Shown here: piece after piece, positions 48,469 through 61,038 of the stretch | How the letters are laid out: each line of letters begins with the position of its first letter | Numbering within the stretch: the first letter of the stretch is position 1 | Assembly: GCA_023228285.1 (NCBI GenBank) | Contig: JALOBM010000004.1 | Span: forward strand, 1 to 64,000 | Origin: Candidatus Cloacimonadota bacterium | GTDB taxonomy: Bacteria; Cloacimonadota; Cloacimonadia; Cloacimonadales; Cloacimonadaceae | Direction of reading: 5' to 3' | DNA: 64,000 nt | Program-made: the position numbers and the translations under genes | Notes under the pieces: generated by a model | Databases searched by the model: none | Seen by the model: only the letters and a program-made list of their open reading frames with translations | What the model was told of the DNA's origin: nothing

Positions 48469-51266
48469 CAGGCTTCTCCTCTCAGGCGCGGCAGTATTCT
48501 CTCCAGGTGAATACCGTGGGATGCTTTCACCAGGATAACAGCATTTTTGGGGAAGAGAGGTAAAGCTGCCATCAACTCTTCAGTGCTGTTGAAGTGCTTG
48601 GAACTGTCATTCTGAAAATAGCGGGAATAATCTCCCACGCTATAGACATCTTGCTCGTCGCTATCGGCGATGATTGCCCCAATCATGCGGTGATACATCT
48701 CTGCGCTGGCGCCCAATTCCAGCATATCTCCCAAGATCGCGAAGTGAGGCATTTCGGGATGAAGATCGTGCCAAAACTCCAGTGCAGACCGCATCGATAC
48801 CGGATTTGCATTGTAGCAATCCACTATTAGAAATCCTTCGTGGAGCTTTTCGATTTGCATTCTCATATCCAGCTTGATCTCTTTTAGTATCGCTTGCTGT
48901 ATCTCTTGATTGTCATATTCCAGAGATTGTGCCAAGGCTATGGCAAAAGCTGAATTTATCACATAGTATGGAGCCTTGTAGGGAATTATCCATTTGTCGT
49001 TATTAAGTCTAAAGCGCATACCTTGTTGGTGTCCATGCACATCGCTGATGGCATAATCTGCATCTGGAGAATAACCTACCGAGATTCCATCATTTTTATA
49101 TGGAGCAAAGCGTTCGTCATCGGCGGGGTAAAGGCGCAAGTTTAGAGCCCGGTGGAAGAGAACGCATTTCTCTTTGAAGACCCCGTTTTCATCGCCAAAA
49201 TACTCCAGGTGAGAGGGCCCGATATTCAGGATAATGCCTGCATCCGGCATTATTGTATCCGCCAATTGAGCGATTTCTCCAAAGTGATTGGTGCCGATCT
49301 CAAAGACTCCATAATGATGATCGGGCTCCACCCGCAGGATAGTCTTACAAAGCCCAATCAGGTTGTTTTCATTTCTGGCAGTCTTCAAAACCTTCTTACG
49401 CGATGCCAGGATCTGGGATATCAGTTCTTTGGTTCCGGTCTTGCCTGTCGATCCCGTGAGTGCTATTTTAAAAAGATCAAACATTTGCAGATACTTGCGC
49501 AGGATCTCTGCCATCACGTTCCCGGGATTATCGCACCTGATATAATGCTCTTCATATATAGTATCAATGCTACCCACTGCCATGTTGTCAGGATCCGCCA
49601 ATACATTGTCCACAAAGCGGTTGCCATCGAAGCTGTCTCCCTTGATGGCGAAAAAGACACTGCCTGGCTTGATGGAGCGACTATCGGTAGATACATAACG
49701 ATAGTACTGAGCTTTTGTATATCCGGTTTCCTGAGGAGTATCACCCAGCAAGAGCTTTATCAAAAGCGGATCCAGGGGAAGGATCAATTCATCCTCTTCC
49801 TTGTATAATGGGATGTTCTCCAATGCAGATTGTGCTACCAGGTGATCATCAAAATCATAACGGATTCCTTCAATTTCCTGATAGGTCTCATGCCCCTTTC
49901 CGCAGATAAGAACGATGTCTCCGGGAACAGCAAGCCTGACTGCCGCTGCAATGGCAATTCTTCGATCCCGGATTATCCACCATGGCAATGCCCAATCACT
50001 GTTTAATACAATGTCGCGGATAATGGCATCGGGGTTTTCTGTGCGGGGATTGTCATCACACACTATCACGGTATCGCTGTAGCTTAGTGCCGCTTTTAAC
50101 ATCAGGGGCCGCTTACCCTTATCGCGGTCTCCGCCTGCTCCAAACACTGTGATGATCCGTCCATGCGGCATCTTCTCAATGCTTTTTAGCACATTATTGA
50201 TGGCATCCGGACTGTGCGCGTAGTCTATAAACACCCCAATCCCATGTTGATTGGGTACAGATTCTATCCTACCCCTTACTGGTTTGAGTGCCACACATAA
50301 TTCTGGTAATTCATCCAGTTCGATACCGGATGCTAATAACGCCGCACAAGCCAGGGACAGGTTATCTACGTTAAATTCGCCCACCAGGGGACTGGTAATC
50401 CGGCAAGAACTTCCAGACTTCAAAATCAAGGAGAAAAGCGAGCCCTCCAAGGCTATACTCACATCCGTAATATTGATATCTGCTTCACTATGCCTGCCCA
50501 CACTGAGACAGTTGCCTTCGGCTTCTTTTACACGATCCAGGATCATTTGGCCATAAGGATCGTCCTGATTGATAATGCTCCAGGCAGAGTTCTTCGCTGC
50601 TCGTTCGAAAAGCATATACTTAGCTTCAAAATAGTCGTCCATGTCTCTATGGAAATCCAGATGATCACGGCTGAGATTTGTGAACAGGCAATACCGAAAT
50701 GCCACACCATATACTCTATCCAATGCCAATGCATGTGAAGAAACCTCCATTACTACATGACTGATCCCATTGTCCAGCATTTGCTTGAAGATTTCGTTTA
50801 GTTGCAGGATATCTGGTGTGGTATGTTTGGTGGGAAAATCCTGATTCAGTATCTTGTACCCCAAAGTGCCTATCCATGCGGCTTTGATACCTTTCTGCAA
50901 CAGCATCTGATACATCATTAATGATGTTGTAGTCTTCCCATTGGTTCCTGTAACTCCAAAGATACTCATCTTTGCTGAAGGGTCTCCAAAGTACAGTTTG
51001 GCGTACAATGCGGTAGCTTTGCGGCTGTCGCTTACCACGATCTGAGCTGCCTCGGTCTGTCCGATGCAGAATGCCGCTCCATTTTGCCTTGCTGTGGAGA
51101 TGAAGTCATGACCATCGAAATTCGCGCCTTTTATGGCTATAAAGCAATCTCCCGCTTGCAAATCTCTATTGTCGGTCACCGGTCTGGGCAAGTTTCCATT
51201 CCCTCTGATATCGCTCTTGATCAGGATCGAATGTGATCTGTAAAGCTTCAGTAACTGGTCTATCAT
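48468..51266 (-). CDS. murEF: MurE-MurF fusion (two Mur ligases in one protein)
   Basis: 932 aa. Residues 1 to about 485 are MurE, with GVTGTNGKTTTS and the CDDNPRTENPD motif of the DNPR type selecting meso-diaminopimelate. Residues about 495-932 are MurF, with ALTGSTGKTGTKE and ARNENNLIGL, which adds D-Ala-D-Ala. Both halves keep their ATP loops, so both steps should be active. The ATG at 51266 is chosen: GGAGG lies 7 bases upstream and it overlaps the previous stop as ATGA; the longer frame to 51287 is rejected. The fusion would couple consecutive steps and joins genes that are normally adjacent. Confidence 0.95.
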   Translation of the reverse strand: MIDQLLKLYRSHSILIKSDIRGNGNLPRPVTDNRDLQAGDCFIAIKGANFDGHDFISTARQNGAAFCIGQTEAAQIVVSDSRKATALYAKLYFGDPSAKMSIFGVTGTNGKTTTSLMMYQMLLQKGIKAAWIGTLGYKILNQDFPTKHTTPDILQLNEIFKQMLDNGISHVVMEVSSHALALDRVYGVAFRYCLFTNLSRDHLDFHRDMDDYFEAKYMLFERAAKNSAWSIINQDDPYGQMILDRVKEAEGNCLSVGRHSEADINITDVSIALEGSLFSLILKSGSSCRITSPLVGEFNVDNLSLACAALLASGIELDELPELCVALKPVRGRIESVPNQHGIGVFIDYAHSPDAINNVLKSIEKMPHGRIITVFGAGGDRDKGKRPLMLKAALSYSDTVIVCDDNPRTENPDAIIRDIVLNSDWALPWWIIRDRRIAIAAAVRLAVPGDIVLICGKGHETYQEIEGIRYDFDDHLVAQSALENIPLYKEEDELILPLDPLLIKLLLGDTPQETGYTKAQYYRYVSTDSRSIKPGSVFFAIKGDSFDGNRFVDNVLADPDNMAVGSIDTIYEEHYIRCDNPGNVMAEILRKYLQMFDLFKIALTGSTGKTGTKELISQILASRKKVLKTARNENNLIGLCKTILRVEPDHHYGVFEIGTNHFGEIAQLADTIMPDAGIILNIGPSHLEYFGDENGVFKEKCVLFHRALNLRLYPADDERFAPYKNDGISVGYSPDADYAISDVHGHQQGMRFRLNNDKWIIPYKAPYYVINSAFAIALAQSLEYDNQEIQQAILKEIKLDMRMQIEKLHEGFLIVDCYNANPVSMRSALEFWHDLHPEMPHFAILGDMLELGASAEMYHRMIGAIIADSDEQDVYSVGDYSRYFQNDSSKHFNSTEELMAALPLFPKNAVILVKASHGIHLERILPRLRGEA

Positions 51267-53452
51267 ATTGAAGCCTCCAGAGTACAAACACCGGAACCGG
51301 TGATGCGGGAGCCAGGCAGCAAGGACTGTTTGCGTACCACTCCGGAGCCGATAATCTTTACCGGAACTCCCTGATCGGAAGCAGTTTTCACAGCCTTGCG
51401 CAAGGTCATACCCACCAAGTTTGGCATAATGGTCGCGGCCAGGCTTTCTTCTCCACGTTTATCCTTGCTTTTACCAAGTTTCAAAGTTATGGGATGGTTC
51501 TTGTCCACAGATATTCCAGCCTTGGGGAATTGATCGATCACAACTGATGCACTGTCCGGTCCCTCAATTTTGTATAGGAAACCAAAGCGGTTCAAGCTCC
51601 ACTCTGCATCCTGAATGCTCATATTGATCAAATCTGGCATCTTCAACGAAGTCTGTAGCAACCGTTCATTATAAGGCAGTATCTGGCAATCGGGCATAAA
51701 CAACACATTCTCTACTATCTTCTTGAACGAGGGAGCGGCACTCATGGAACCAAAGCGATAATAATGTGAAGGCTCATCGTAAAATACTACTACTACCATC
51801 TGAGGATCTTCCATTGGAAACATCCCGGCAAAGACAGCGTTGTATTTGCCACCGGAGTAGCCTCTAGTACCTTCCACATTCTTTTCCGCGGTACCAGTCT
51901 TGCCGCCCACACTGATGTAATCCATTTTGATGTGGGTTGCCGTACCGTCATCCACTACGTCCTGAATATAGGAAAGCATGGTATCGCAAGCAGCTTTAGA
52001 AGATACCTGCCGCAGTACCGATGGCTCGAAAGAATCGATTATTTCGCCATTGTCGTCACGAAAACTATCGACTATCATCGGTTTCATCATCTTCCCGCCG
52101 TTTGCAATTGCGCTGTAAGCAGCGGCAAGCTGAATGGCCGTAACAGAGATCGCCTGTCCAAAAGCTAGCGAATGAAGAGAGTACCCATCCCAATTTTCCA
52201 GCTTTGCAAAGATACCGCTGGATTCACCAAACAGATTTAAAGCGCTTCTCTGGCCAAAGCCCATGGAGATGTACTCCTCGTACAAACGGGTCTTGCCCGT
52301 GCGTTCAGCAAGCTTTGCCACACCCACATTACTGGATTTGGAGATGATTTCACGGGGAGTAAGGGCACCATAATTATGTGTATCGGTGATTACACGTCTT
52401 CCCACCTGGTAGCGGCCACACTCAATTCTCTCGTTTGGCTTCACCAATTTGTACTCCAATGCGGGCAACATACTGATGGGTTTTAGAGTGCTTCCCGGTT
52501 CAAACATGAAGCTGGCGGGGATGTTGGATTTTGCTCTCACCATATTTGGATCATCGCTTTTATCTTGGTTCGAGACTCCTGCCAAAGCAAGTACTCTGCC
52601 GGTTTTCGGGTCCATCACCACTGCACCACCATGAGCGGCGCCATACTTTTCTACGCCTTCATAAAGTACGTTTTCCACTATCTCTTGGATGTTTGTATCT
52701 ATAGTAAGGTAAAGGTTATTTCCGTTTCTTGGTTTCTTCTCATGCAGATCAGGGTAAGGTACGCGATTACCGTTTGCATCCAGAACTATCTCGCGCCATC
52801 CGTATTCTCCGGAGAGCACTTTGTCGTATGTAGCTTCGATGCCACATATACCGGAAAGCTTGTACAAGGACTTGCTATCGGTCATGGGATCATAACCGTT
52901 TGAGGCTTCATTAACGGCTCCCATCAGCCTGGCAGCCAAAGATCCCTTGGAATAGATTCTGCGCATGGAGGCAAAATTATGGATCAATCCTGGTAATTTC
53001 TGTTCCTTAAAGCCCTGGATCAGTTGATCCAATTCGGCTTCACTGATGCGATTACTTATCTGAATTGACGAATTTTTACTACCCAGATTCAGCCGCTTCA
53101 GAACTGTATCTTTACTGATGTTGCTATTATCGCCGATTACAGTGGCAATCATCTGAAAAGCCTCTTTCTGGCTGATTTCCTTCCGCTTCGCCCATGTGTT
53201 TACAGCAGCGCGATCGATGTCCAACTGGTAATAGCTCACACTGGAGACCAGCAAATTGCCTTTTGCATCGTATATTCCGCCTCTTCGGGGGATGAGGATT
53301 TCTTTGCGGGGTGTATAACGGACGCGTCTGAGGTGAGCAAAATTGAAGGGATCCATAATCTGGATACCAAAGAGGTATACGCTCCATAACAGAGCGGCAG
53401 CACCAAAGAGAACAATCAACAAGTAAAAGCGAGAGCGCATGGCATCAATCAA
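51263..53452 (-). CDS. ftsI: Penicillin-binding protein transpeptidase with PASTA domains (FtsI/PBP2-type)
   Basis: 729 aa. One N-terminal transmembrane helix is at about 8-30, followed by a dimerisation domain and the transpeptidase with SxxK at Ser321-Lys324, SSN at 373-375 and KTG at 518-520. Two PASTA domains lie at about 595-725, resembling the Spo0VD/PBP2x type. It crosslinks septal peptidoglycan. It starts at TTG 53452, overlapping ftsL by 8 bases; ATG 53440 is an alternative. Confidence 0.94.
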   Translation of the reverse strand: MIDAMRSRFYLLIVLFGAAALLWSVYLFGIQIMDPFNFAHLRRVRYTPRKEILIPRRGGIYDAKGNLLVSSVSYYQLDIDRAAVNTWAKRKEISQKEAFQMIATVIGDNSNISKDTVLKRLNLGSKNSSIQISNRISEAELDQLIQGFKEQKLPGLIHNFASMRRIYSKGSLAARLMGAVNEASNGYDPMTDSKSLYKLSGICGIEATYDKVLSGEYGWREIVLDANGNRVPYPDLHEKKPRNGNNLYLTIDTNIQEIVENVLYEGVEKYGAAHGGAVVMDPKTGRVLALAGVSNQDKSDDPNMVRAKSNIPASFMFEPGSTLKPISMLPALEYKLVKPNERIECGRYQVGRRVITDTHNYGALTPREIISKSSNVGVAKLAERTGKTRLYEEYISMGFGQRSALNLFGESSGIFAKLENWDGYSLHSLAFGQAISVTAIQLAAAYSAIANGGKMMKPMIVDSFRDDNGEIIDSFEPSVLRQVSSKAACDTMLSYIQDVVDDGTATHIKMDYISVGGKTGTAEKNVEGTRGYSGGKYNAVFAGMFPMEDPQMVVVVFYDEPSHYYRFGSMSAAPSFKKIVENVLFMPDCQILPYNERLLQTSLKMPDLINMSIQDAEWSLNRFGFLYKIEGPDSASVVIDQFPKAGISVDKNHPITLKLGKSKDKRGEESLAATIMPNLVGMTLRKAVKTASDQGVPVKIIGSGVVRKQSLLPGSRITGSGVCTLEASI

Positions 53453-53801
53453 GCATGATGGTTACGTTCTTTGCTTCCGCTCTGGTGGCGATAAGATCGA
53501 TAATGCAATAAGAGTCCGCTTCCTGGCTGGGAGAGGGCTCGTGTACATAGATGATGCTGCCCTGCTCATTATCGGGAATGAACTGGCTCATCTCCACCCT
53601 TACCAGAGAAGCGATGTGACGTCCGCTGCGTAGATCATCATGTTCCACCAAAAGTTCGGTATTAATGTTCTTCTCCGCGTTGAAAGTCTTTTCCACGTTC
53701 GATAAACGACGCGTGTAGCTTACAATTTTGTTGTTGTTGAAAAAACTAAAAAATCCGCATATGACTACAAGGATAATCAGAACGATTATTTTTCCTCTCA
53801 T
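53445..53801 (-). CDS. ftsL: FtsL-like divisome protein
   Basis: 118 aa: a short basic N-terminus, a transmembrane helix at about 4-20, and an extracytoplasmic region that starts as a coiled coil (RRLSNVEKTFNAEKNINTELLVEHDDL). FtsL is recognised mainly by size, topology and position between rsmH and ftsI; the sequence is weakly conserved. The start at 53801 overlaps the rsmH stop (ATGA); 53813 is an alternative. Confidence 0.75.
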   Translation of the reverse strand: MRGKIIVLIILVVICGFFSFFNNNKIVSYTRRLSNVEKTFNAEKNINTELLVEHDDLRSGRHIASLVRVEMSQFIPDNEQGSIIYVHEPSPSQEADSYCIIDLIATRAEAKNVTIMLD

Positions 53802-54733
53802 TTTTTCCCCCATTTCTTTTCTGCCGCTCTCAGCTTAGCACTGCGCGAGCGGACATTTGATGCTATTTCTTCGGGACCGGCTGTTATCGGTCTCCTGGTA
53901 AGTATCTTTAGTTTGCTATAGTGGGAACATACACAGTTGATGATGGCCGGAGGGCAGATGCAATCTTGCTCCGCAAGTTTGAACGTGTTTTTTACAATGC
54001 GGTCTTCAAGAGAGTGGTAACTCATCACCACAATCCTTCCTCCGGGATTCAGCAGATTGACGGCATCATCCAAGGCACCGGACAAAGCGTTCAATTCATC
54101 GTTTACGCAGATTCTTAAAGCTTGGAAGATTCTGACCTTCGTTTTCAAAGATTCTTTGCTGCCTGAACCTACAACAGTCTCGATGATCCCCGCCAACTCT
54201 GTAGTGGTATTGATCCTGCGTTCAGCTCTGTAGCGTTCGATAGCCCTACCGATTCTGCCAGCAGATTGCTCTTCACCGTATTCTTTGAAGATTCTTTTCA
54301 GCTCTTCATAGCTGTATTCATTCACAATCTGCTGTGCGCTCAGTTCTGCTTCGCGATCCATACGCATATCCAGTTCTGCTTCCCGGTCAAAACTAAAACC
54401 ACGCTTAGTCTCGTTCAATTGGTGCGAGCTTACACCCAGATCAAAGAGTATGCCATCTATCCCCTTTACCTTATTATATGCTAGTTGAGTGCGCAAATCC
54501 CGGAAATTCGCTTTTATAAGAACCGGAGAATAACCTTGCAAACGCTTCGTGGCAGCATTTATCGCTTCTTCATCCTGATCAAAACCATATAACCGGATAC
54601 CGGACTCTCTTTGATACATGGCCAGTGCATGTCCACCACCGCCTAAAGTGGCATCCACATAGATCTTGCCCTTCTGAAGATTTAGATAATCCATACAGGA
54701 TTGCAGCATTACCGGTTCATGGTAACTGCTCAC
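53798..54733 (-). CDS. rsmH: 16S rRNA (cytosine(1402)-N4)-methyltransferase
   Basis: 311 aa. The SAM loop is DATLGGGGHA near residue 30, FDLGVSSHQLN follows, and the ending VMSYHSLEDRIVKN then TRRPITAGPEEIASNVRSRSA is diagnostic. It modifies the ribosomal P site. It overlaps mraZ by 4 bases. Confidence 0.97.
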   Translation of the reverse strand: MSSYHEPVMLQSCMDYLNLQKGKIYVDATLGGGGHALAMYQRESGIRLYGFDQDEEAINAATKRLQGYSPVLIKANFRDLRTQLAYNKVKGIDGILFDLGVSSHQLNETKRGFSFDREAELDMRMDREAELSAQQIVNEYSYEELKRIFKEYGEEQSAGRIGRAIERYRAERRINTTTELAGIIETVVGSGSKESLKTKVRIFQALRICVNDELNALSGALDDAVNLLNPGGRIVVMSYHSLEDRIVKNTFKLAEQDCICPPAIINCVCSHYSKLKILTRRPITAGPEEIASNVRSRSAKLRAAEKKWGKK

Positions 54734-55170
54734 AGTTGGTAGTCCTCACTGGTGAAAGTATCGCGATGAGCTTTCAGCTTGCTCTGCCGAACCTTGGCGT
54801 AGATTTCAGGATTCCACAAGGAAATATAATGCCCCTCGCCTTTGATGATCACGCTGTCTTCGATCCCTACTTCATTCAAAAGCAATTCGTGAATCCTCAC
54901 TCTACCGGGTCCTTCCAGTTCTTGTTCCATCATCGCAAAATCGATCAGTTGAGTACGCAGTCTTTTTGCTCTTTCGTCACCTTCTTTCAGGCGTTCCAAA
55001 GTGCTTTTCCAGCTATCGAGAGGGTAGATGGCGATGGTGTTTGAAGGCCCCATGGTAACCACAACCGAGCGCATGGCTGTTTCTGCGAATTTCTTCTTGA
55101 AACTGGCCGGAATAATCACGCGCTGCTTGTGTACTGAGTTTTCGAAGATACCTAAAAATTCACCGGACAT
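54730..55170 (-). CDS. mraZ: Transcriptional regulator MraZ
   Basis: 146 aa with two tandem SpoVT/AbrB-like halves (GEFLGIFENSVHKQRVIIPASF and GRVRIHELLLNEVGIEDSVIIKG). MraZ forms rings and represses its own dcw operon by binding short direct repeats at its promoter. Three such repeats are found just upstream (55276-55301). Confidence 0.95.
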   Translation of the reverse strand: MSGEFLGIFENSVHKQRVIIPASFKKKFAETAMRSVVVTMGPSNTIAIYPLDSWKSTLERLKEGDERAKRLRTQLIDFAMMEQELEGPGRVRIHELLLNEVGIEDSVIIKGEGHYISLWNPEIYAKVRQSKLKAHRDTFTSEDYQL

Positions 55171-55275
55171 GGTCTTTCCTTTTTCTGCTGTTTGAACCTA
55201 ATCTGAGTTGCGCTTGCGTTTTCTTAGTATCAGCGCTTCCTATTTTGAGACTTTTTGAATTTATCTGAGATATTA

Positions 55276-55301
55276 TGACATCCTGTGACACCTATATGAC
55301 A
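55276..55301 (-). promoter_or_regulatory. Putative MraZ operator: three TGTCA direct repeats
   Basis: On the - strand, TGTCA boxes (TGACA on +) begin at 55276, 55286 and 55297, one helical turn apart, each preceded by AGG or GGT-like bases. They overlap the -10 of the mraZ promoter. MraZ is known to bind period-10 direct repeats, so autorepression is likely. Confidence 0.6.
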
Positions 55302-55319
55302 TCCTACTTTTCTTGTCAA
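55291..55319 (-). promoter_or_regulatory. dcw operon promoter (mraZ)
   Basis: On the - strand a perfect -35 TTGACA (55319-55314) is followed after 17 bases by TATAGG (55296-55291), upstream of mraZ. It is embedded in the repeats at 55276-55301 and contains the stop codon of the Cro-like gene. Confidence 0.65.
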
Positions 55320-55702
55320 GATTTAATTATCTTTTTTCTCATATTTCTATGGGATATGTACTTAACTATTATGAATAGCAGTGGATTAGATAAGCGATAT
55401 TGTGCTTCTGAGAGATGGGAAATTGTCAGATAACAGGGTAAAATCCGGCTTGTTTGTTCAAAAGGAAAAATCAGACTATGTAAGGGGTAGCCATAGCGTC
55501 GGTATTGCGTGGCCAGGTATGCCGCGATCTTTTTGCGCATATCTCTGGCAGCTCTCCGCTCAGCGTATATTTCGCGAATGTAATATGCGCTGACTCCCAT
55601 CGCTTTTGCCAGATCCATGGGGGTCTGATCAATATCTATCAGAGCCTTGCGGATCTGTTTGCCTGTCGGCCTCGGGTCTTGAGTATCCTTTTTCCTTGAC
55701 AT
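55316..55702 (-). CDS. Cro/CI-type small HTH regulator with a repeat-encoded tail
   Basis: 128 aa. Residues about 15-65 form a helix-turn-helix (LIDIDQTPMDLAKAMGVSAY followed by YIREIYAERRAARDMRKKIA) typical of small phage-type regulators opposite S24 repressors. Residues about 74-106 are encoded by the 97-base direct repeat, and the last 22 residues by the mraZ promoter region, so the native protein was probably about 75 residues and has been extended by read-in. SD GGAG precedes the ATG. It is transcribed toward mraZ. Confidence 0.7.
   Translation of the reverse strand: MSRKKDTQDPRPTGKQIRKALIDIDQTPMDLAKAMGVSAYYIREIYAERRAARDMRKKIAAYLATQYRRYGYPLHSLIFPFEQTSRILPCYLTISHLSEAQYRLSNPLLFIIVKYISHRNMRKKIIKS
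55385..55481. repeat. 97-bp direct repeat, left copy
   Basis: Identical, base for base, to 56993-57089 in the same orientation. It sits just outside the mraZ promoter and inside the 3' part of the small HTH gene. Candidate attachment site or duplication boundary. Confidence 0.95.
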
Positions 55703-55743
55703 CTGAACTCCATTACATTATCTTGTTTGCATATGTGGACAAG

Positions 55744-55793
55744 ATAACGCATGAGCGTATCCTGTCAGGCAGAATATAACGCTTTAGCGTTAT
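55744..55793. promoter_or_regulatory. Two repressor operators between the divergent genes
   Basis: ATAACGC-TTTA-GCGTTAT (55776-55793) is a perfect 7-base inverted repeat, and ATAACGC-ATGA-GCGTATC (55744-55761) is a near copy. Their centres are 32 bases apart, three helix turns. They lie between the starts of the S24 repressor and the small HTH gene, as in lambda-type switches. Confidence 0.75.
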
Positions 55794-55805
55794 GAAGGAT
55801 GATTG

Positions 55806-56459
55806 ATGGATTATAAGATGCTGCTAAATGAGCTGTTAAGCTCACTCAAACTTAGCAAAAAAAAGTTTGCCGAGCAGCTCGGATTGTCTCAGGGGAACGT
55901 GTCCGATTGGTTTAATCGGCCAGGATACCGCCCATCAATCGACGCCTTAAAACGAATAAGCGAAATCTACAATGTTAATCTCAACTGGCTCATCACCGGC
56001 AAGGGTGACATGTTTAATAGTACGCACGCGCGCGAGAATCCCCCTGGAGCCGGAGTCCTCACCATCCCGGTATATGCAGATATCGCAGCCGGCATTGGCA
56101 TTGAAGCTGAAGACCTCGAACCCACCGAATCCATTTCTATCCCCAGCGAAGCGATCACTAACATCCCAGGCCCCTTTTACTGCTTTCGCGTTAATGGGGT
56201 GTCAATGGAACCAGAGCTGCATACCGGAGATTATGCCATCATATCCGGCTGGCAGTTTGATGTGGATTACAATGGATACTTTTGCGCCTTCCGTTCAGTT
56301 GATGGTCTATTGATCAAACGTCTGGTCTATGATCACCGGTGCAAACGCTGTCTGCTTGTACCGGTCAACCCCACCCACCCAATCATTGAATACGATGAGC
56401 ACAGCCCCGACATTAAGATAATCGGACGCCTGGTCGCTGTGCTTCGCAAATACATATAG
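55806..56459 (+). CDS. S24/LexA-type phage repressor
   Basis: 217 aa. An N-terminal helix-turn-helix (LKLSKKKFAEQLGLSQGNVS, residues about 14-33) precedes a C-terminal S24 peptidase with catalytic Ser133 (GVSMEPELHTGD) and Lys171 (LLIKRLVY). An Ala-Gly pair at 95-96 is a plausible self-cleavage site. Such repressors autocleave on RecA activation and release phage genes. The ATG at 55806 has AAGGATG upstream. It probably binds the operators at 55744-55793. Confidence 0.88.
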   Translation: MDYKMLLNELLSSLKLSKKKFAEQLGLSQGNVSDWFNRPGYRPSIDALKRISEIYNVNLNWLITGKGDMFNSTHARENPPGAGVLTIPVYADIAAGIGIEAEDLEPTESISIPSEAITNIPGPFYCFRVNGVSMEPELHTGDYAIISGWQFDVDYNGYFCAFRSVDGLLIKRLVYDHRCKRCLLVPVNPTHPIIEYDEHSPDIKIIGRLVAVLRKYI

Positions 56460-56470
56460 CGAGGTTTATA

Positions 56471-56737
56471 GTGGAAGAAGTCATTCAAATAGTGTCAGTC
56501 ATTGTCGTAATTGTCGTTGTACTTGTCTATAGTCACAAGGAGAATCTCAAAAAGGATAAGGCGGTCACGATAACTTGTCCACGTTGTGGATACTCAGGAA
56601 CAAAGAACACTTATGCCGGTGCTGCCAGCAATGTTATAGGCTGTGTGTTGCTTTTGTTATTCTTGATCCCTGGCATATTCTACTATGCTATACTCGGTGG
56701 CAAGATAGTGTGCCCTCGGTGCAGAAACACGTTTTAA
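56471..56737 (+). CDS. Small membrane protein with split zinc ribbon
   Basis: 88 aa, GTG start with an upstream GAGG. There is one hydrophobic helix at about 6-20, then CPRCGYSGTKN, a second hydrophobic helix (VIGCVLLLLFLIPGIFYYAI) and CPRC near the end. The two CxxC pairs could form one zinc site across a membrane hairpin. It is 11 bases after the repressor, probably co-transcribed. Function unknown; possibly a lysogeny-expressed cargo protein. Confidence 0.65.
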   Translation: MEEVIQIVSVIVVIVVVLVYSHKENLKKDKAVTITCPRCGYSGTKNTYAGAASNVIGCVLLLLFLIPGIFYYAILGGKIVCPRCRNTF

Positions 56738-56992
56738 CTGGCATGGGGTATATCTTACCCATGTTTTGCCAAACTTTTGGCAAATCCCATTGATTATCAG
56801 TTTTTGCCAAATTGTTGTCACTCACCTCACCGCTATGTTTTTGCCAAATTGTTGTCACTCAACCTCCATTTCCCCCGTTTTTTGCCAAACTTCCTGTCAC
56901 CCCTGGTTTCAGTGGTATTCCCCTTTATTATAGCACCTTTGCACCACTTTTAACACTAATATATCTCTTGCCAAACTCCCTGTCACCCCATA
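56738..56992. other. Intergenic iteron-containing region of the insert
   Basis: Between the zinc-ribbon gene and the right repeat no gene is visible. The region is occupied by repeated TTGCCAAA/TGTCAC motifs, listed separately. Confidence 0.6.
56765..56986. repeat. Iteron-like array of TTGCCAAA...TGTCAC motifs
   Basis: TTTGCCAAA-CT-TTTGGCAAA is a palindrome at 56765-56784. Four direct motifs follow: TTGCCAAA at 56804, 56841, 56882 and 56968, each followed 12-13 bases from its start by TGTCAC. Starts are about 37-41 bases apart, with the last at twice that spacing. Such arrays can be replication iterons or cooperative regulator sites. Confidence 0.75.
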
Positions 56993-57089
56993 ATTAGATA
57001 AGCGATATTGTGCTTCTGAGAGATGGGAAATTGTCAGATAACAGGGTAAAATCCGGCTTGTTTGTTCAAAAGGAAAAATCAGACTATGT
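56993..57089. repeat. 97-bp direct repeat, right copy
   Basis: Perfect copy of 55385-55481. It marks the right boundary of the insert. Confidence 0.95.
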
Positions 57090-57443
57090 GCAATATGAGC
57101 ATAATAATGAGAGCCATTTACCAAAGAGAGCGGGTTAGCCTATAGGGAGTACATGTTTGAATGAGAGCTTTTATTACAACAGAGACTGAGTAATGTGGCA
57201 GCATCTGCTGAAAACAAAACAAGACAAGCAATCCTGAGACTGCCTGTCCTGTTTACTAAATTGAGGTTTATCTTACTAGGGAATAGAGATCAGTTTCTGC
57301 TTCTGGTGTTGCTTTCATAGTTTTTCTACTCGTCCTCTCCAGGATTCATCTCTACATAGAGAATCACTGCATTTCACGCAATAGCTATGTTGATAGTTGG
57401 CGTAATAGCCTTTGGAAAGCTGCTTATCAAGCTTATGGGAGGA
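57090..57443. other. Intergenic region, nothing recognised
   Basis: 354 bases between the right repeat and the 3' end of the TonB-receptor gene. I see no open frame, RNA gene or strong inverted repeat. Confidence 0.5.
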
Positions 57444-59300
57444 TTATCTCAGTATGTATTTAAGCCGCAGACTAAAGTCTCTTCCCGGTGCTGGAAAGCC
57501 ATATTCGGTTTGGTAGTTCTCATCGAGGATGTTTTGTAGGGCAAATTGTATCTCAAAGTTACGCCATTTCTTTTGGATACCGATCTCATGAGCAAAATAC
57601 GCCGGCAGCGAATGAAATTGTTCTATACTGTCCTGAGAATCCCGCTTACTGCGATATTCGGAGTTGCAGTGCAGTACAAAATCCCAGGGAAGCTGAATCC
57701 TATTGAGCAGCTCCATACTATGAGGAGCGCTGTCGCTAAGCTTGTAATCCCCCCGGTTTTGTAAAAGGGAATACTGCAATGTAGCATCCCAAATCTCAGC
57801 AATATTGCAGTTTAAAGAGATTTCTCCGCCATAACTTTGGTGCTTATAAATGTTCTCATAACGATTGTTGGTTCTATCGATCAGATTGCGCACATCGTTG
57901 AAATAAACACTTGTATCCAGCATGACCCTTGAGCCCAGATTGCGTTTGTGACTCAGTTCTACTTTTCTGGCTGAAGATGCTTTCAGATCTGGATTTCCGT
58001 TTTCTGCAGAAAACAACTGGCGCATCGTGGGTATGGAGCTGTTTATCCCCAGTGAAAGCATAGTGCTTACGTTGTCTTGATGATTCCAGATGATGGCAGC
58101 CGAAGGTTCCGGATGAAACCTGACCTGTTCAGATTTACTATGTCCAAAGAAAGCGATGCCCAGGCTGAGAGTGTAGCTAAGCGCAGCGTTGATGTCCGCT
58201 TCATACTGGGAGAATACACTGCCCACCAGCGCATGATTGTGTGTCCACTCGCGATAGTTGTTGTCATCTTTTCGCTTTACCTTTCGGTACTCCATCCTGC
58301 TACCGGTATTCCATACTCCCCTGGCTCTATGTTCATACACAGGGGCAAGACCGATATTGAAGGATTCCATACGTGAGGACAATTCAGGAATTTGATGGCT
58401 AGCGTCTCGAAAACGTTCGAAAGTATCACCCGCAGCGTCGAAATATACTTGCCCGCGTACGTTGCTGCTTAGCGAGCTAAAGAAATCCATGCCCAAGCTT
58501 GCATTTGCCCTGTACCAATCCTTGTAAGTGCCATAATCCCAAATATATATGGATGAAGGGATCTCTTTATATGGTATAGTAGTATAACCCAGGTTTACAC
58601 TCATTTCATGCAGATCATTCACCAGCCAATCGCCGGTTGCATCCATTTGCCAACTGCTTTGATAGTTATGATCCCTTAGCTTTCCATTCTCAAACACTGT
58701 GGGCTCAAAATCTTCGGATAGCGGATAAGGCCTGCGTTCATCCCGCATGATGCTGAACTTGTAGCGAAAATCTCCCAATCTCTGAGCTGAAGATATCCTC
58801 TGGGAGTTCACCAAATTGCGGGATAGTTTGCTTTCCAGAGCAAGGCGATAGGCGTCTTTGCTGCTGATCAGATTCACCACTCCACCCATGGTCGATGTGC
58901 CATACATGGCGCTGGCAGGTCCTTTTACAATGCGGATCTCGGCAATATCGTCGATCAGGATTTTTGAGAGGTCCACATTGCCGAAATATCCGCTATTCAG
59001 AGGTCTGCCATCGATCATTATCAAGTTCTCGTTCTTACGAAAGCCGCGTATCTTCAGATTACTCTCATCACGGGAACCGTAACTGATATTGAGACCTGGA
59101 CTTAGCTTGATGGCTTCGGAGATGCTGTCGCTGTTTTTCGGCTTTTGGATACTGCTAATGGATCCGATGCTGGCTTGAGGTCCCTCGGCAATTACCCTAA
59201 CCGGATGCAAATGATACTGCTTCAGCGAATCGGATTCGCTTCTAACAGAAAAGATCAGCATGGGAAATAGACCCATGCTGATCAGGATTATTCTCTTCAA
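57444..59300 (-). CDS. TonB-dependent outer membrane receptor
   Basis: 618 aa. A signal peptide (1-20) precedes the plug domain (about 45-150: SISEAIKLSPGLNISYGSRD, LKIRGFRKNENLIMIDGRPL, IRIVKGPASAMYGTSTMGGVVNLI), a 22-stranded barrel and a C-terminal aromatic strand (DFSLRLKYILR). It imports a ligand such as a metal complex or cofactor using TonB energy. It is in an operon behind a lipoprotein (ATGA overlap) whose leader is highly structured, so the ligand may be sensed by RNA. The ligand is unknown. Confidence 0.92.
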   Translation of the reverse strand: MKRIILISMGLFPMLIFSVRSESDSLKQYHLHPVRVIAEGPQASIGSISSIQKPKNSDSISEAIKLSPGLNISYGSRDESNLKIRGFRKNENLIMIDGRPLNSGYFGNVDLSKILIDDIAEIRIVKGPASAMYGTSTMGGVVNLISSKDAYRLALESKLSRNLVNSQRISSAQRLGDFRYKFSIMRDERRPYPLSEDFEPTVFENGKLRDHNYQSSWQMDATGDWLVNDLHEMSVNLGYTTIPYKEIPSSIYIWDYGTYKDWYRANASLGMDFFSSLSSNVRGQVYFDAAGDTFERFRDASHQIPELSSRMESFNIGLAPVYEHRARGVWNTGSRMEYRKVKRKDDNNYREWTHNHALVGSVFSQYEADINAALSYTLSLGIAFFGHSKSEQVRFHPEPSAAIIWNHQDNVSTMLSLGINSSIPTMRQLFSAENGNPDLKASSARKVELSHKRNLGSRVMLDTSVYFNDVRNLIDRTNNRYENIYKHQSYGGEISLNCNIAEIWDATLQYSLLQNRGDYKLSDSAPHSMELLNRIQLPWDFVLHCNSEYRSKRDSQDSIEQFHSLPAYFAHEIGIQKKWRNFEIQFALQNILDENYQTEYGFPAPGRDFSLRLKYILR

Positions 59301-60112
59301 TCTTCTCCCAGTTCCACTACTTGTCCAGTAAAACCGTCATATTGAGCGGGGAAGGTAAAGCTGATATCAGCTTTATCATTGTCGGCATTCATGTACAAAG
59401 GAATATCTGTCCCAAAATCCATATCAACCTTGATTCGGTCGATATACTTGAATTTCTTCATATTGTTCGGCAATTCTTCAAAAGATGGGAAAGTAGTCCT
59501 TTCACTTTGTAACAGATAGTATCCGTCAGCTATCTGTTCGGGAGTGTAGTCTTTACTATAACCATCTGAAGCCATCAGAGAGATGGTAGTGTATCCGCTG
59601 TGATCGCTTAGCAGGTCGCTTAGTTTAATTGCCTCTTCATCCACTCCATCATAGTTTGTGACAGTGTAAACGGGCAATTTCCCAAGCTCTTTATAATGGG
59701 AATTTCCCAAGCTGTCTACCACTACGATGCGACGATACAGGCGAATTGTGGTGGCATTCTTCACTTCGAAAGCTCCGGGTGTGGTGTCATCAAAGAACAT
59801 GGTTCTCAATTGGTTTGAAGGCACCATGAACCCGGTCTTGAAGACTGACCAGTCCAAGTCATATCCCGCTGTCTCTTCACGGTCTCTGGGGCTGAAACCG
59901 TCCGAGGCAACGATTTCATAATTGTAGAGATCTCTAAAGTCTGTGGGATCTTCTTCTGTAGGATCTGTGATTTCTTGCACCTGGGCAGTATCGATGAATT
60001 GATCAAGAAGATAGCCCAAAATCTCAGCATCGGTGCCGTTGTCTTTCTCGCTGCAAGCGCTGATGCTCAGCAGGAGAGCGATGGCAAACAGTACAAATAA
60101 GTACTTTTTCAA
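59297..60112 (-). CDS. Surface lipoprotein paired with the TonB receptor
   Basis: 271 aa from a TTG at 60112 that has GGAGG 8 bases upstream; an ATG at 60127 or a longer start at 60214 lies inside the structured leader. The signal peptide KKYLFVLFAIALLLSISAC ends in a lipobox, then a beta-rich domain with an acidic early segment (ITDPTEEDPTDFRDL) follows. No known family is recognised. By operon position it may capture the same ligand as the receptor. Confidence 0.7.
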   Translation of the reverse strand: MKKYLFVLFAIALLLSISACSEKDNGTDAEILGYLLDQFIDTAQVQEITDPTEEDPTDFRDLYNYEIVASDGFSPRDREETAGYDLDWSVFKTGFMVPSNQLRTMFFDDTTPGAFEVKNATTIRLYRRIVVVDSLGNSHYKELGKLPVYTVTNYDGVDEEAIKLSDLLSDHSGYTTISLMASDGYSKDYTPEQIADGYYLLQSERTTFPSFEELPNNMKKFKYIDRIKVDMDFGTDIPLYMNADNDKADISFTFPAQYDGFTGQVVELGED

Positions 60113-60250
60113 GGTAGTAACCTCCATATTTTTATTGGAGGCGGACGGATAGATACCGTCAGCCTTTCCAGTGGGAGGCATGGCCGTTTCCCGCCATACC
60201 CTATCGGTATTCATGCTTGCCGTAAACAGGTTTAGCCATGAATACTCGGC
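60113..60250 (-). promoter_or_regulatory. Structured 5' leader, riboswitch candidate
   Basis: Four stems lie in a row on the - strand: GTATTCATG/CATGAATAC (60207-60215 and 60237-60245, 21-base loop), GGTATGGC/GCCATGCC (60193-60200 and 60177-60184), GACGG/CCGTC (60144-60148 and 60156-60160), and CCTCCA/TGGAGG (60136-60141 and 60121-60126). The last pairs with the lipoprotein's SD GGAGG and would block translation. A GCCTCCC...CTGGAAAGG stretch faintly recalls the molybdenum-cofactor RNA from memory, but I cannot assign a class. Confidence 0.6.
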
Positions 60251-60314
60251 TTGAGTGCAAAACTGTTATGGTTTTAAAAGATGTCAAGAACAGAAGTTGC
60301 TGCGTTGTGTTCTT

Positions 60315-60405
60315 CGTACCTCTAGTGCGTTTTGAAAGCGGAAAATCGGAATTCGTACCGTAGCATTCCGATGCTAAGCCTTGTACCTCGTGCCTCTGGT
60401 GCGTT
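60315..60405. repeat. Direct repeats flanking an inverted repeat
   Basis: CGTACCTCTAGTGCGTT (60315-60331) and CGTGCCTCTGGTGCGTT (60389-60405) match at 15 of 17 bases. Between them ATCGGAAT (60345-60352) is the reverse complement of ATTCCGAT (60365-60372). Confidence 0.5.
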
Positions 60406-60762
60406 CCCGTTATTGCACCTCTCCTGATGTATCAATGTGCTGATATCAAATGTTACCCCTCACGAAGGCACGTAACATCAAATTGGACGGGACAGAGCCC
60501 CTTTGTATGCTCAAGCAGGTCAATTTCTCAAATGCACCTCAAGAACAACCTGAACACTACCCAAGCCCCGCTCAGGATGTCTTTGGGATACTCTTTGATT
60601 GCATAGTCCGGGTTAGTTATCAGAAACACTGCGAGATAAGTCGTGCAACTCCGTTTCTCTCAGATAGAGCATTGGAACTCAACCAGCTTGATATACTCTG
60701 CTTTTAAGACTAATTCTACAACTGACTTCCTCAATCGCGAAATTGTTTTGATCGATCACAAA

Positions 60763-60820
60763 ATTTCAAAGAGCCGCATAGCATGAGGTCGGTTCAAAGA
60801 CAGTTAGGCCTCTTTGAAAT
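60763..60820. repeat. 11-bp perfect inverted repeat
   Basis: ATTTCAAAGAG (60763-60773) and CTCTTTGAAAT (60810-60820) with a 36-base loop. No T-tail; function unknown. Confidence 0.5.
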
Positions 60821-61038
60821 CCATGCATACCTGATGTTGTCGCCCATGAAGGGCTCCATGCGTATTATTGCGCATTTATCGAGGGGCTCCGCTTCGCTTC
60901 GCACACTCGCTATGATCAGTTTCGCTCTCCGGGCTTTACCGGTAATCCTCCCAACATAAAAATCTGCGTGATTCCGCTCGATCAGCGTTATCAGTGTGCT
61001 ATTCATGCTATTCATCCTCTTTGCCTGTAGCAGTGCCG

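Follow-up and report, generated by a model that had tools for sequence, protein, structure and literature searches.

The closest described system is the left end of the transposable phage Mu (AF083977), in which attL is followed by the repressor gene c, ner, A and B in that order, and whose insertions carry a 5-bp duplication of the target. For its repair, infecting Mu depends on PriA-DnaT and RecABC. Junctions were rearranged in 5 of the 15 Mu insertions whose sequence was determined in an E. coli priA mutant, from which one-ended Mu insertions are reported too (PMC3325207). The locus described here lies within a stretch of 64,000 nucleotides (positions 1 to 64,000 of contig JALOBM010000004.1, assembly GCA_023228285.1) from a Candidatus Cloacimonadota bacterium, referred to as the window. 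The repressor gene toward the terminus and the divergent ner gene inward are shared with the Mu left end. The locus differs from Mu in that everything after ner is missing, the repressor is of the S24 type, a membrane gene stands between repressor and terminus, and 97 bp are duplicated instead of 5 bp. Judged from its sequence, the element is very likely a left-end remnant of a Mu-type transposable phage and not a complete member. That it is a one-ended, internally truncated Mu-type phage insertion which arose by failed and mis-repaired transposition is, taken as a whole statement, the explanation favoured here with moderate confidence.

Two identical copies of a 97-nt sequence were found at 55385-55481 and 56993-57089, 1,608 bp apart from start to start, exactly where a previous sequence-only reading had placed them. 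In a 24-mer scan of the 64-kb window this pair was the sole exact direct repeat of at least 30 bp, which excludes a chance origin. In G001, the nearest genome compared, the 97-mer is present twice in total, arranged as in the window, and the whole 2.5-kb region is also found there. Ungapped comparison of the two over 50236-61000 revealed 10 substitutions in 10,765 bp (99.9% identity), one of them within the element; the comparison loses register from 61007, probably owing to an indel, and that part was left uncounted. To judge from these differences, G001 is a strain distinct from the source of the window, so two strains carry the structure. A one-off assembly duplication of the second repeat, against which the earlier reading had cautioned, is therefore unlikely. 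RecA-type recombination between the repeats could delete the element.

Three main ORFs lie between the repeats; the remaining ones are short overlapping frames, and profile searches covered the three main ORFs. As had been claimed earlier, none of the three gave a match above cut-off to an integrase or a transposase (Pfam, PHROG), nor to Rep, and a DDE transposase bearing Mu-transpos_C is lacking among them. The ner/Cro-like gene (55482..55702, minus strand; phrog_1468, 7e-9) has an intact HTH region and is cut after about 73 codons. Its product is 62% identical over 74 aa to the ner product (85 aa) of a related phage module in G007, a genome of another genus. This homology ends near codon 73 of 85, and the left edge of the element, 55482, lies inside ner; the left boundary is therefore a break and not an end of the element. 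The truncated open frame continues through the host repeat, which supplies part of its tail, to 55316 and comprises 128 aa in all. In the switch region (55741..55793) a consensus scan, which listed 11 promoter-like sites in the region against 4.7 expected, gave a ner promoter-like site (minus strand, 55768-55741, CTGACA-16-TATCTT, 9/12 consensus match), and an operator-like palindrome is located at 55776-55793.

The repressor gene (55806..56459, plus strand) has an intact reading frame of 217 aa with matches to Peptidase_S24 (1.6e-16) and HTH_3. Related proteins numbered 114 at E<=1e-20, its own included; P0004 among them is 89% identical. When 32 repressors were aligned (those of the window, G007 and G031, and 29 picked from the 114 listed), I93-A94-A95-G96, S133 and K171 were invariant in all 32. 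With its HTH and S24 domains, A-G site and Ser/Lys dyad, the protein shares the sequence features of the autocleaving S24 (LexA/CI-like) repressors. A95-G96 is the putative autocleavage site, with Ser133 and Lys171 as the putative dyad; these are roles which we presume from those of LexA and CI. The next gene (56471..56737, plus strand) encodes a small membrane protein of 88 aa that contains two CPxC pairs as well as two hydrophobic stretches and occupies an accessory slot between the repressor and the phage end. Two homologues of it were found (95% and 66% identity); by tblastn it has no counterpart in G007, the membrane gene of which is unrelated. An array of TTGCCAA-type sites (56766..56992) follows, and 6 of the 25 TTGCCAA/TTGGCAA sequences of the window fall within the 255 bp of 56738-56992. 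The S24 repressor, its Cro-like partner, the membrane gene and the array agree with the sequence-only reading, every Pfam zinc-ribbon match of the 88-aa protein being below cut-off.

Relatives were sought among 49 genomes of the family and, in wider searches, among 124 genomes of the phylum. G007 contains a homologous module with a repressor about 55% identical and the same array motif, and this module ends in ...TTGCCAAACTACTTGTCACCCCATA followed by CTTTAGTTATG. At a second place in G007 the identical TTGCCAAACTACTTGTCACCCCATA terminus occurs, followed by TAAAGGTATCT. The termini adjoin CTTTA at one place and TAAAG at the other, which are reverse complements; such a 5-bp match at a fixed boundary would arise by chance at 1 in 1,024. 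From the sequence of these ends, the two pentamers are read as a 5-bp target duplication, as made by Mu-type transposition, and the second place is presumably the other end of the same phage, given the identical terminus and the 5-bp match. The two ends sit on separate contigs. Inside the second terminus are two ORFs without PHROG match and outside it host-like genes (by eye); the ORFs beyond the ner gene of G007 also had no PHROG match. A search for the empty site of this phage gave relatives that match the attR side, none of which joins the attL side. No overlap was found among contigs C439, C43 and C4, so the transposase on C43 is at most a candidate part of that phage.

The terminus defined in G007 falls at 56992 in the window, where the phage left terminus (56968..56992, plus strand) reads outward TTGCCAAACTCCCTGTCACCCCATA-3', the same as at the two G007 places. 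The right 97-bp copy (56993..57089) stands directly against it. The left copy is preceded by GG, as against the TA of the phage before the right copy. With the right copy beginning right at the terminus and GG, not TA, ahead of the left one, both copies are read as host DNA and the element proper as 55482-56992; in the earlier reading the repeats had been its own bounds. The structure is thus mraZ side, 97 bp, ner to attL, the same 97 bp, TonB side. While the G007 relative has the same terminus at its two presumed ends, next to a 5-bp target duplication as in Mu-type phages, the window element has one terminus and a 97-bp duplication, and lacks the two termini with 5-bp duplication that mark the Mu type.

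The positions of the end sites were compared by counting inward from the terminus. Forward TTGGCAA was found at 19, 105, 146, 183 and 221 in the window, at 19, 106 and 147 at attL of G007, and at 19, 40 and 142 at attR of G007. The three outer sites of the window match those at attL in position, the first two sites at attR are 21 bp apart, and reverse-orientation sites also occur. The array, earlier called iteron-like, is better taken as putative transposase-binding sites of the phage left end, the same motif clustering at both ends in G007. When Mu end sites were scored on AF083977 with a consensus, the R1-R2 spacing was 22 bp, compared to 21 bp at the G007 right end, and left-end sites fell at 6 and 151, a spacing unlike that in the window. 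Confidence in the whole statement is lowered by this Mu left-end spacing, which is not reproduced, and by the G007 right-end ORFs without family match. The genomes of Mu and the D3112 group begin with TG; the terminus in the window reads ...CCCCATA. The phage ends at 56990-56992, L035, L046 and L047, as placed by the 5-bp duplication, appear to finish in ATA-3' and not in CA-3' as in Mu and D3112-like phages.

A search with the terminus pattern (up to 2 mismatches) matched 4 of the 49 family genomes, and the reversed control none. Of these, G033 was dropped (2 mismatches, coding-like by eye), and the second match in G001 is an inner array site. In G027 a one-mismatch terminus ending in ...CACCCCATA stands behind an exported-protein gene, with 3 array motifs. 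Six of the 124 phylum genomes matched; two of these, G076 and G099, were set aside for having 2 mismatches and lacking TTGCCAA within their last 300 bp. A one-mismatch terminus ending in ...CACCCCATA is also present in G110, which belongs to another order of the same class. It lies there where a repressor-like gene (phrog_8, 2e-12) has its 3' end, and was kept as a possible phage end, though its terminal site stands alone without an array. The pattern had 0 matches in viral contigs. Of the proteins compared with these contigs, the window repressor matched 1 locus, the G007 ner product 1 and the G007 repressor 11, all of them partial matches of 27-46% identity. A contig search of genomes gave two distant relatives.

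Homologues of Ner were found in 3 of the 124 phylum genomes (G001, G007 and G024). In G024 the repressor and divergent ner are followed, about 1 kb after ner, by a Mu-transpos_C transposase (837 aa, 2.7e-17) and then by an AAA/TniB-like ATPase, the adjoining ATPase having been profile-tested in G024 only. Repressor and ner-like PHROG matches precede a Mu-transpos_C transposase in G011 and on contig C48 of G043 as well. The order repressor, ner, transposase in these three genomes is that of Mu AF083977; the window element comprises terminus, membrane gene, repressor and ner only. Mu-transpos_C was detected in 27 of the 49 family genomes, with 0 matches in G001 (96% complete). No complete prophage of exactly the window type was found. 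In 15 further loci no other left end with a long flank duplication was seen, a weak test in that most of them hold at most one phage end; the repeats there occurred only at 7-77 bp spacing (tandem or CRISPR-like), apart from two short ones, of 37 bp at a distance of 5,656 in L111 and of 36 bp at 1,256 in L129. Among 60 of 85 E. coli records listed, with the best place per record considered, no natural solo Mu left end was present; MFDpir (1-640) and two DH5alpha records (1-70), being laboratory strains, were not counted as natural. No title or abstract opening among the literature matches listed mentioned a natural genome with a solo Mu-type left end flanked by a long target duplication.

The element is inserted between the dcw genes and a TonB-dependent receptor gene, its right neighbour. 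On the left are mraZ (54730..55170, minus strand; PF02381, 1.6e-12), the first of the dcw genes, then rsmH, an ORF without Pfam match and a PASTA-type penicillin-binding protein gene. The left 97-bp copy (55385..55481) is contiguous with the mraZ upstream region and 100% identical to the right copy; the 5 bp with which it begins, ATTAG, are the presumed target site. The distance from this copy to the mraZ -35, earlier given as 66 bases, is 65 bases to a TTGACA (minus strand, 55319-55314), and the consensus scan lists no promoter there. On comparing the mraZ-side interval in relatives, as the sequence-only reading had proposed, mraZ aligned without an adjoining insert in 11 of 11 other genomes of the genus, G037, G040 and G045 having merely 366-384 bp upstream of mraZ before the contig end. 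In G039 and G044 the receptor gene is on the same contig, with 263 and 521 bp between the aligned ends; in the stretch examined of the other 9 no receptor match was found. The 97-mer aligned weakly, contiguous with mraZ, in G040 (21.4, against a maximum of 17.4 in 50 shuffles) and marginally in G043 (19.0, against a shuffle maximum of 17.9). Ten relatives were tested, and in the remaining 8 it scored no better than shuffles. The view of an inserted, phage-derived and degraded element at the promoter side of mraZ, without a recombinase of its own, is borne out.

The sequence of events that could have led to this structure is as follows. A transposase would have attached the phage's left end to the chromosome at ATTAG, the target lying between mraZ and the receptor gene, and target-primed synthesis would have proceeded about 1.5 kb into the phage before collapsing. 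The free end would then have been repaired onto the uninterrupted sister chromosome with re-entry 97 bp behind the joining point, by which 97 bp of host DNA would be duplicated and the remainder of the phage lost. For this mis-repaired intermediate as the particular route to the 97-bp duplication we see about an even chance. The mechanism is deduced from a single structure, shared by two strains of the same lineage. With no transposase and one end, the remnant cannot transpose alone. One-ended transposition shares with the element one true end and one variable internal end. Its products carry a normal short target duplication, in contrast to the 97 bp found here. The mis-repaired Mu insertions of the E. 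coli priA mutant came from laboratory infection of a repair mutant (PMC3325207), whereas the case in the window is common to two natural strains.

The same phage could have left this remnant by a different last step. If the 97 bp were host DNA carried to the left of the genome in a Mu-type virion, the left end of such a virion, broken off with its 97-bp flank, attL, the repressor and part of ner, could have circularised or recombined and entered via homology of the flank, which gives exactly the structure observed. At their left end Mu virions contain between 50 and 150 bp of host DNA (PMC5977238), 100 bp on average (PMC7350765), and 97 bp falls within that range; D3112-group phages have mostly 31-36 bp (PMC5977238), and one length is weak evidence. 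Homology-facilitated illegitimate recombination, with one homologous and one illegitimate junction, would fit such an entry, but is described in PMC3240628 for competent bacteria and E. coli conjugation and not for phage ends. This origin calls for ner to be broken, for a joining step and for an exchange inside a 97-bp stretch, and is considered unlikely. Illegitimate recombination independent of transposition, in which a complete prophage later lost most of its DNA by unequal exchange between ner and an empty-site chromosome 97 bp behind, would yield the same junctions from the same phage, and Mu-transpos_C is present in the family (27/49 genomes). It requires both an occupied and an empty homologue and an unlinked break, and a prophage beside mraZ was seen in 0 of 11 relatives; we regard it as quite unlikely.

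Perfect flanking repeats around a phage-like switch are what a satellite or integrative element with 97-bp attachment sites would show, and the sequence-only reading had proposed a minimal satellite-like element delimited by these repeats. The homologous G007 module bears instead a transposon-type terminus and a 5-bp duplication, no integrase match was obtained in the three main ORFs, the left boundary cuts ner, and the 97-mer occurs just twice in G001. Such an element is extremely improbable on this evidence and was rejected; one repeat adjoins a transposon-type terminus and the other a broken gene. An iteron plasmid was likewise rejected, with no Rep match in the three main ORFs and with the array present at the G007 phage ends too. 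As 97 nt is a plausible assembler word length and a bias shared by the assemblers of both strains is possible, the second repeat could be an assembly artefact. Against this, the repeat is carried by two assemblies set apart by 10 substitutions over 10.8 kb, of which one is in the element, and its edge coincides with the phage terminus; an artefact is very improbable.

The mis-repaired insertion, like any other origin, is compatible with a later role of the remnant, which may make an active immunity repressor to judge from its coding sequence. It might have been kept because the repressor blocks related phages, or because a solo left end confers cis target immunity on the dcw region. The repressor frame is intact, the autocleavage site and Ser/Lys residues are invariant in 32/32, its relatives number 114 at E<=1e-20 (itself counted), and cis-immunity outside Mu ends is strongest around 5 kb in vivo (PMC7350765). 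However, the identical repeats suggest a young insertion, and Mu cis immunity acts via MuA bound at the ends (PMC7350765), while no Mu-transpos_C gene was found in G001. Such domestication is doubtful. The ner promoter-like site is directed toward mraZ and the dcw genes, and the consensus scan gave no minus-strand terminator-like site between it and mraZ. The sole strain difference within the element is in the -35 of this site, CTGACA in the window versus TTGACA in G001. The stranded switch could, in principle, act as a damage-responsive control of cell division: RecA-triggered self-cleavage of the S24 repressor would free the ner promoter, and transcription would then proceed leftward across what is left of ner and the adjoining 97-bp copy to reach mraZ/dcw. 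From the sequence we judge this improbable.

If the proposed origin is true, the locus would preserve in a natural genome the trace of a failed Mu-type insertion such as is reported from a repair-deficient laboratory strain, and would provide a signature for counting such events in genomes, namely one true terminus with a long host duplication and not 5 bp. It would also mean that a lysis-lysogeny switch has been placed upstream of an essential division operon, and that ends of Mu-type phages in Cloacimonadota are described.

Several further features were observed at these loci. Upstream of mraZ, three near-direct repeats, GACATCCTGT, GACACCTATAT and GACATCCTAC, start at 55277, 55287 and 55298 (55277-55308); similar ones occur in G039, G044 and G040, and they are possibly the MraZ-binding boxes of this phylum. 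In G024 the left end of the Mu-type prophage (L111:1763-2310) lies about 1 kb from a CRISPR-like array. The slot 3' of the repressor is occupied by differing small membrane or exported proteins, with a hydrophobic segment in the first 28 residues, in 8 of 11 loci (56471-56737 in the window; L035:1519-1893; L080:944-1495; L047:45-548; L111:3088-3543; L114:14406-15128; L113:12631-13242; L093:330-1370), G037, G003 and G011 being the exceptions and G038 and G110, with no gene in the slot, being left out. The slot may serve for lysogenic conversion or exclusion. In L080 the slot protein is followed by tail-like genes, hence the slot is not at the terminus there. In G038 a related S24 repressor (L116:12682-13347, 37% identity) stands alone among host-like genes. 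It follows a long inverted repeat containing ATTTTATTGATCCAG and has no ner-like neighbour among the listed ORFs. The repressor of G031 (L080:279-929) has an HTH half close to that of the window (76.6% DNA identity over 256 bp) and a divergent S24 half, which from the sequences is domain-level mosaicism of the repressors.
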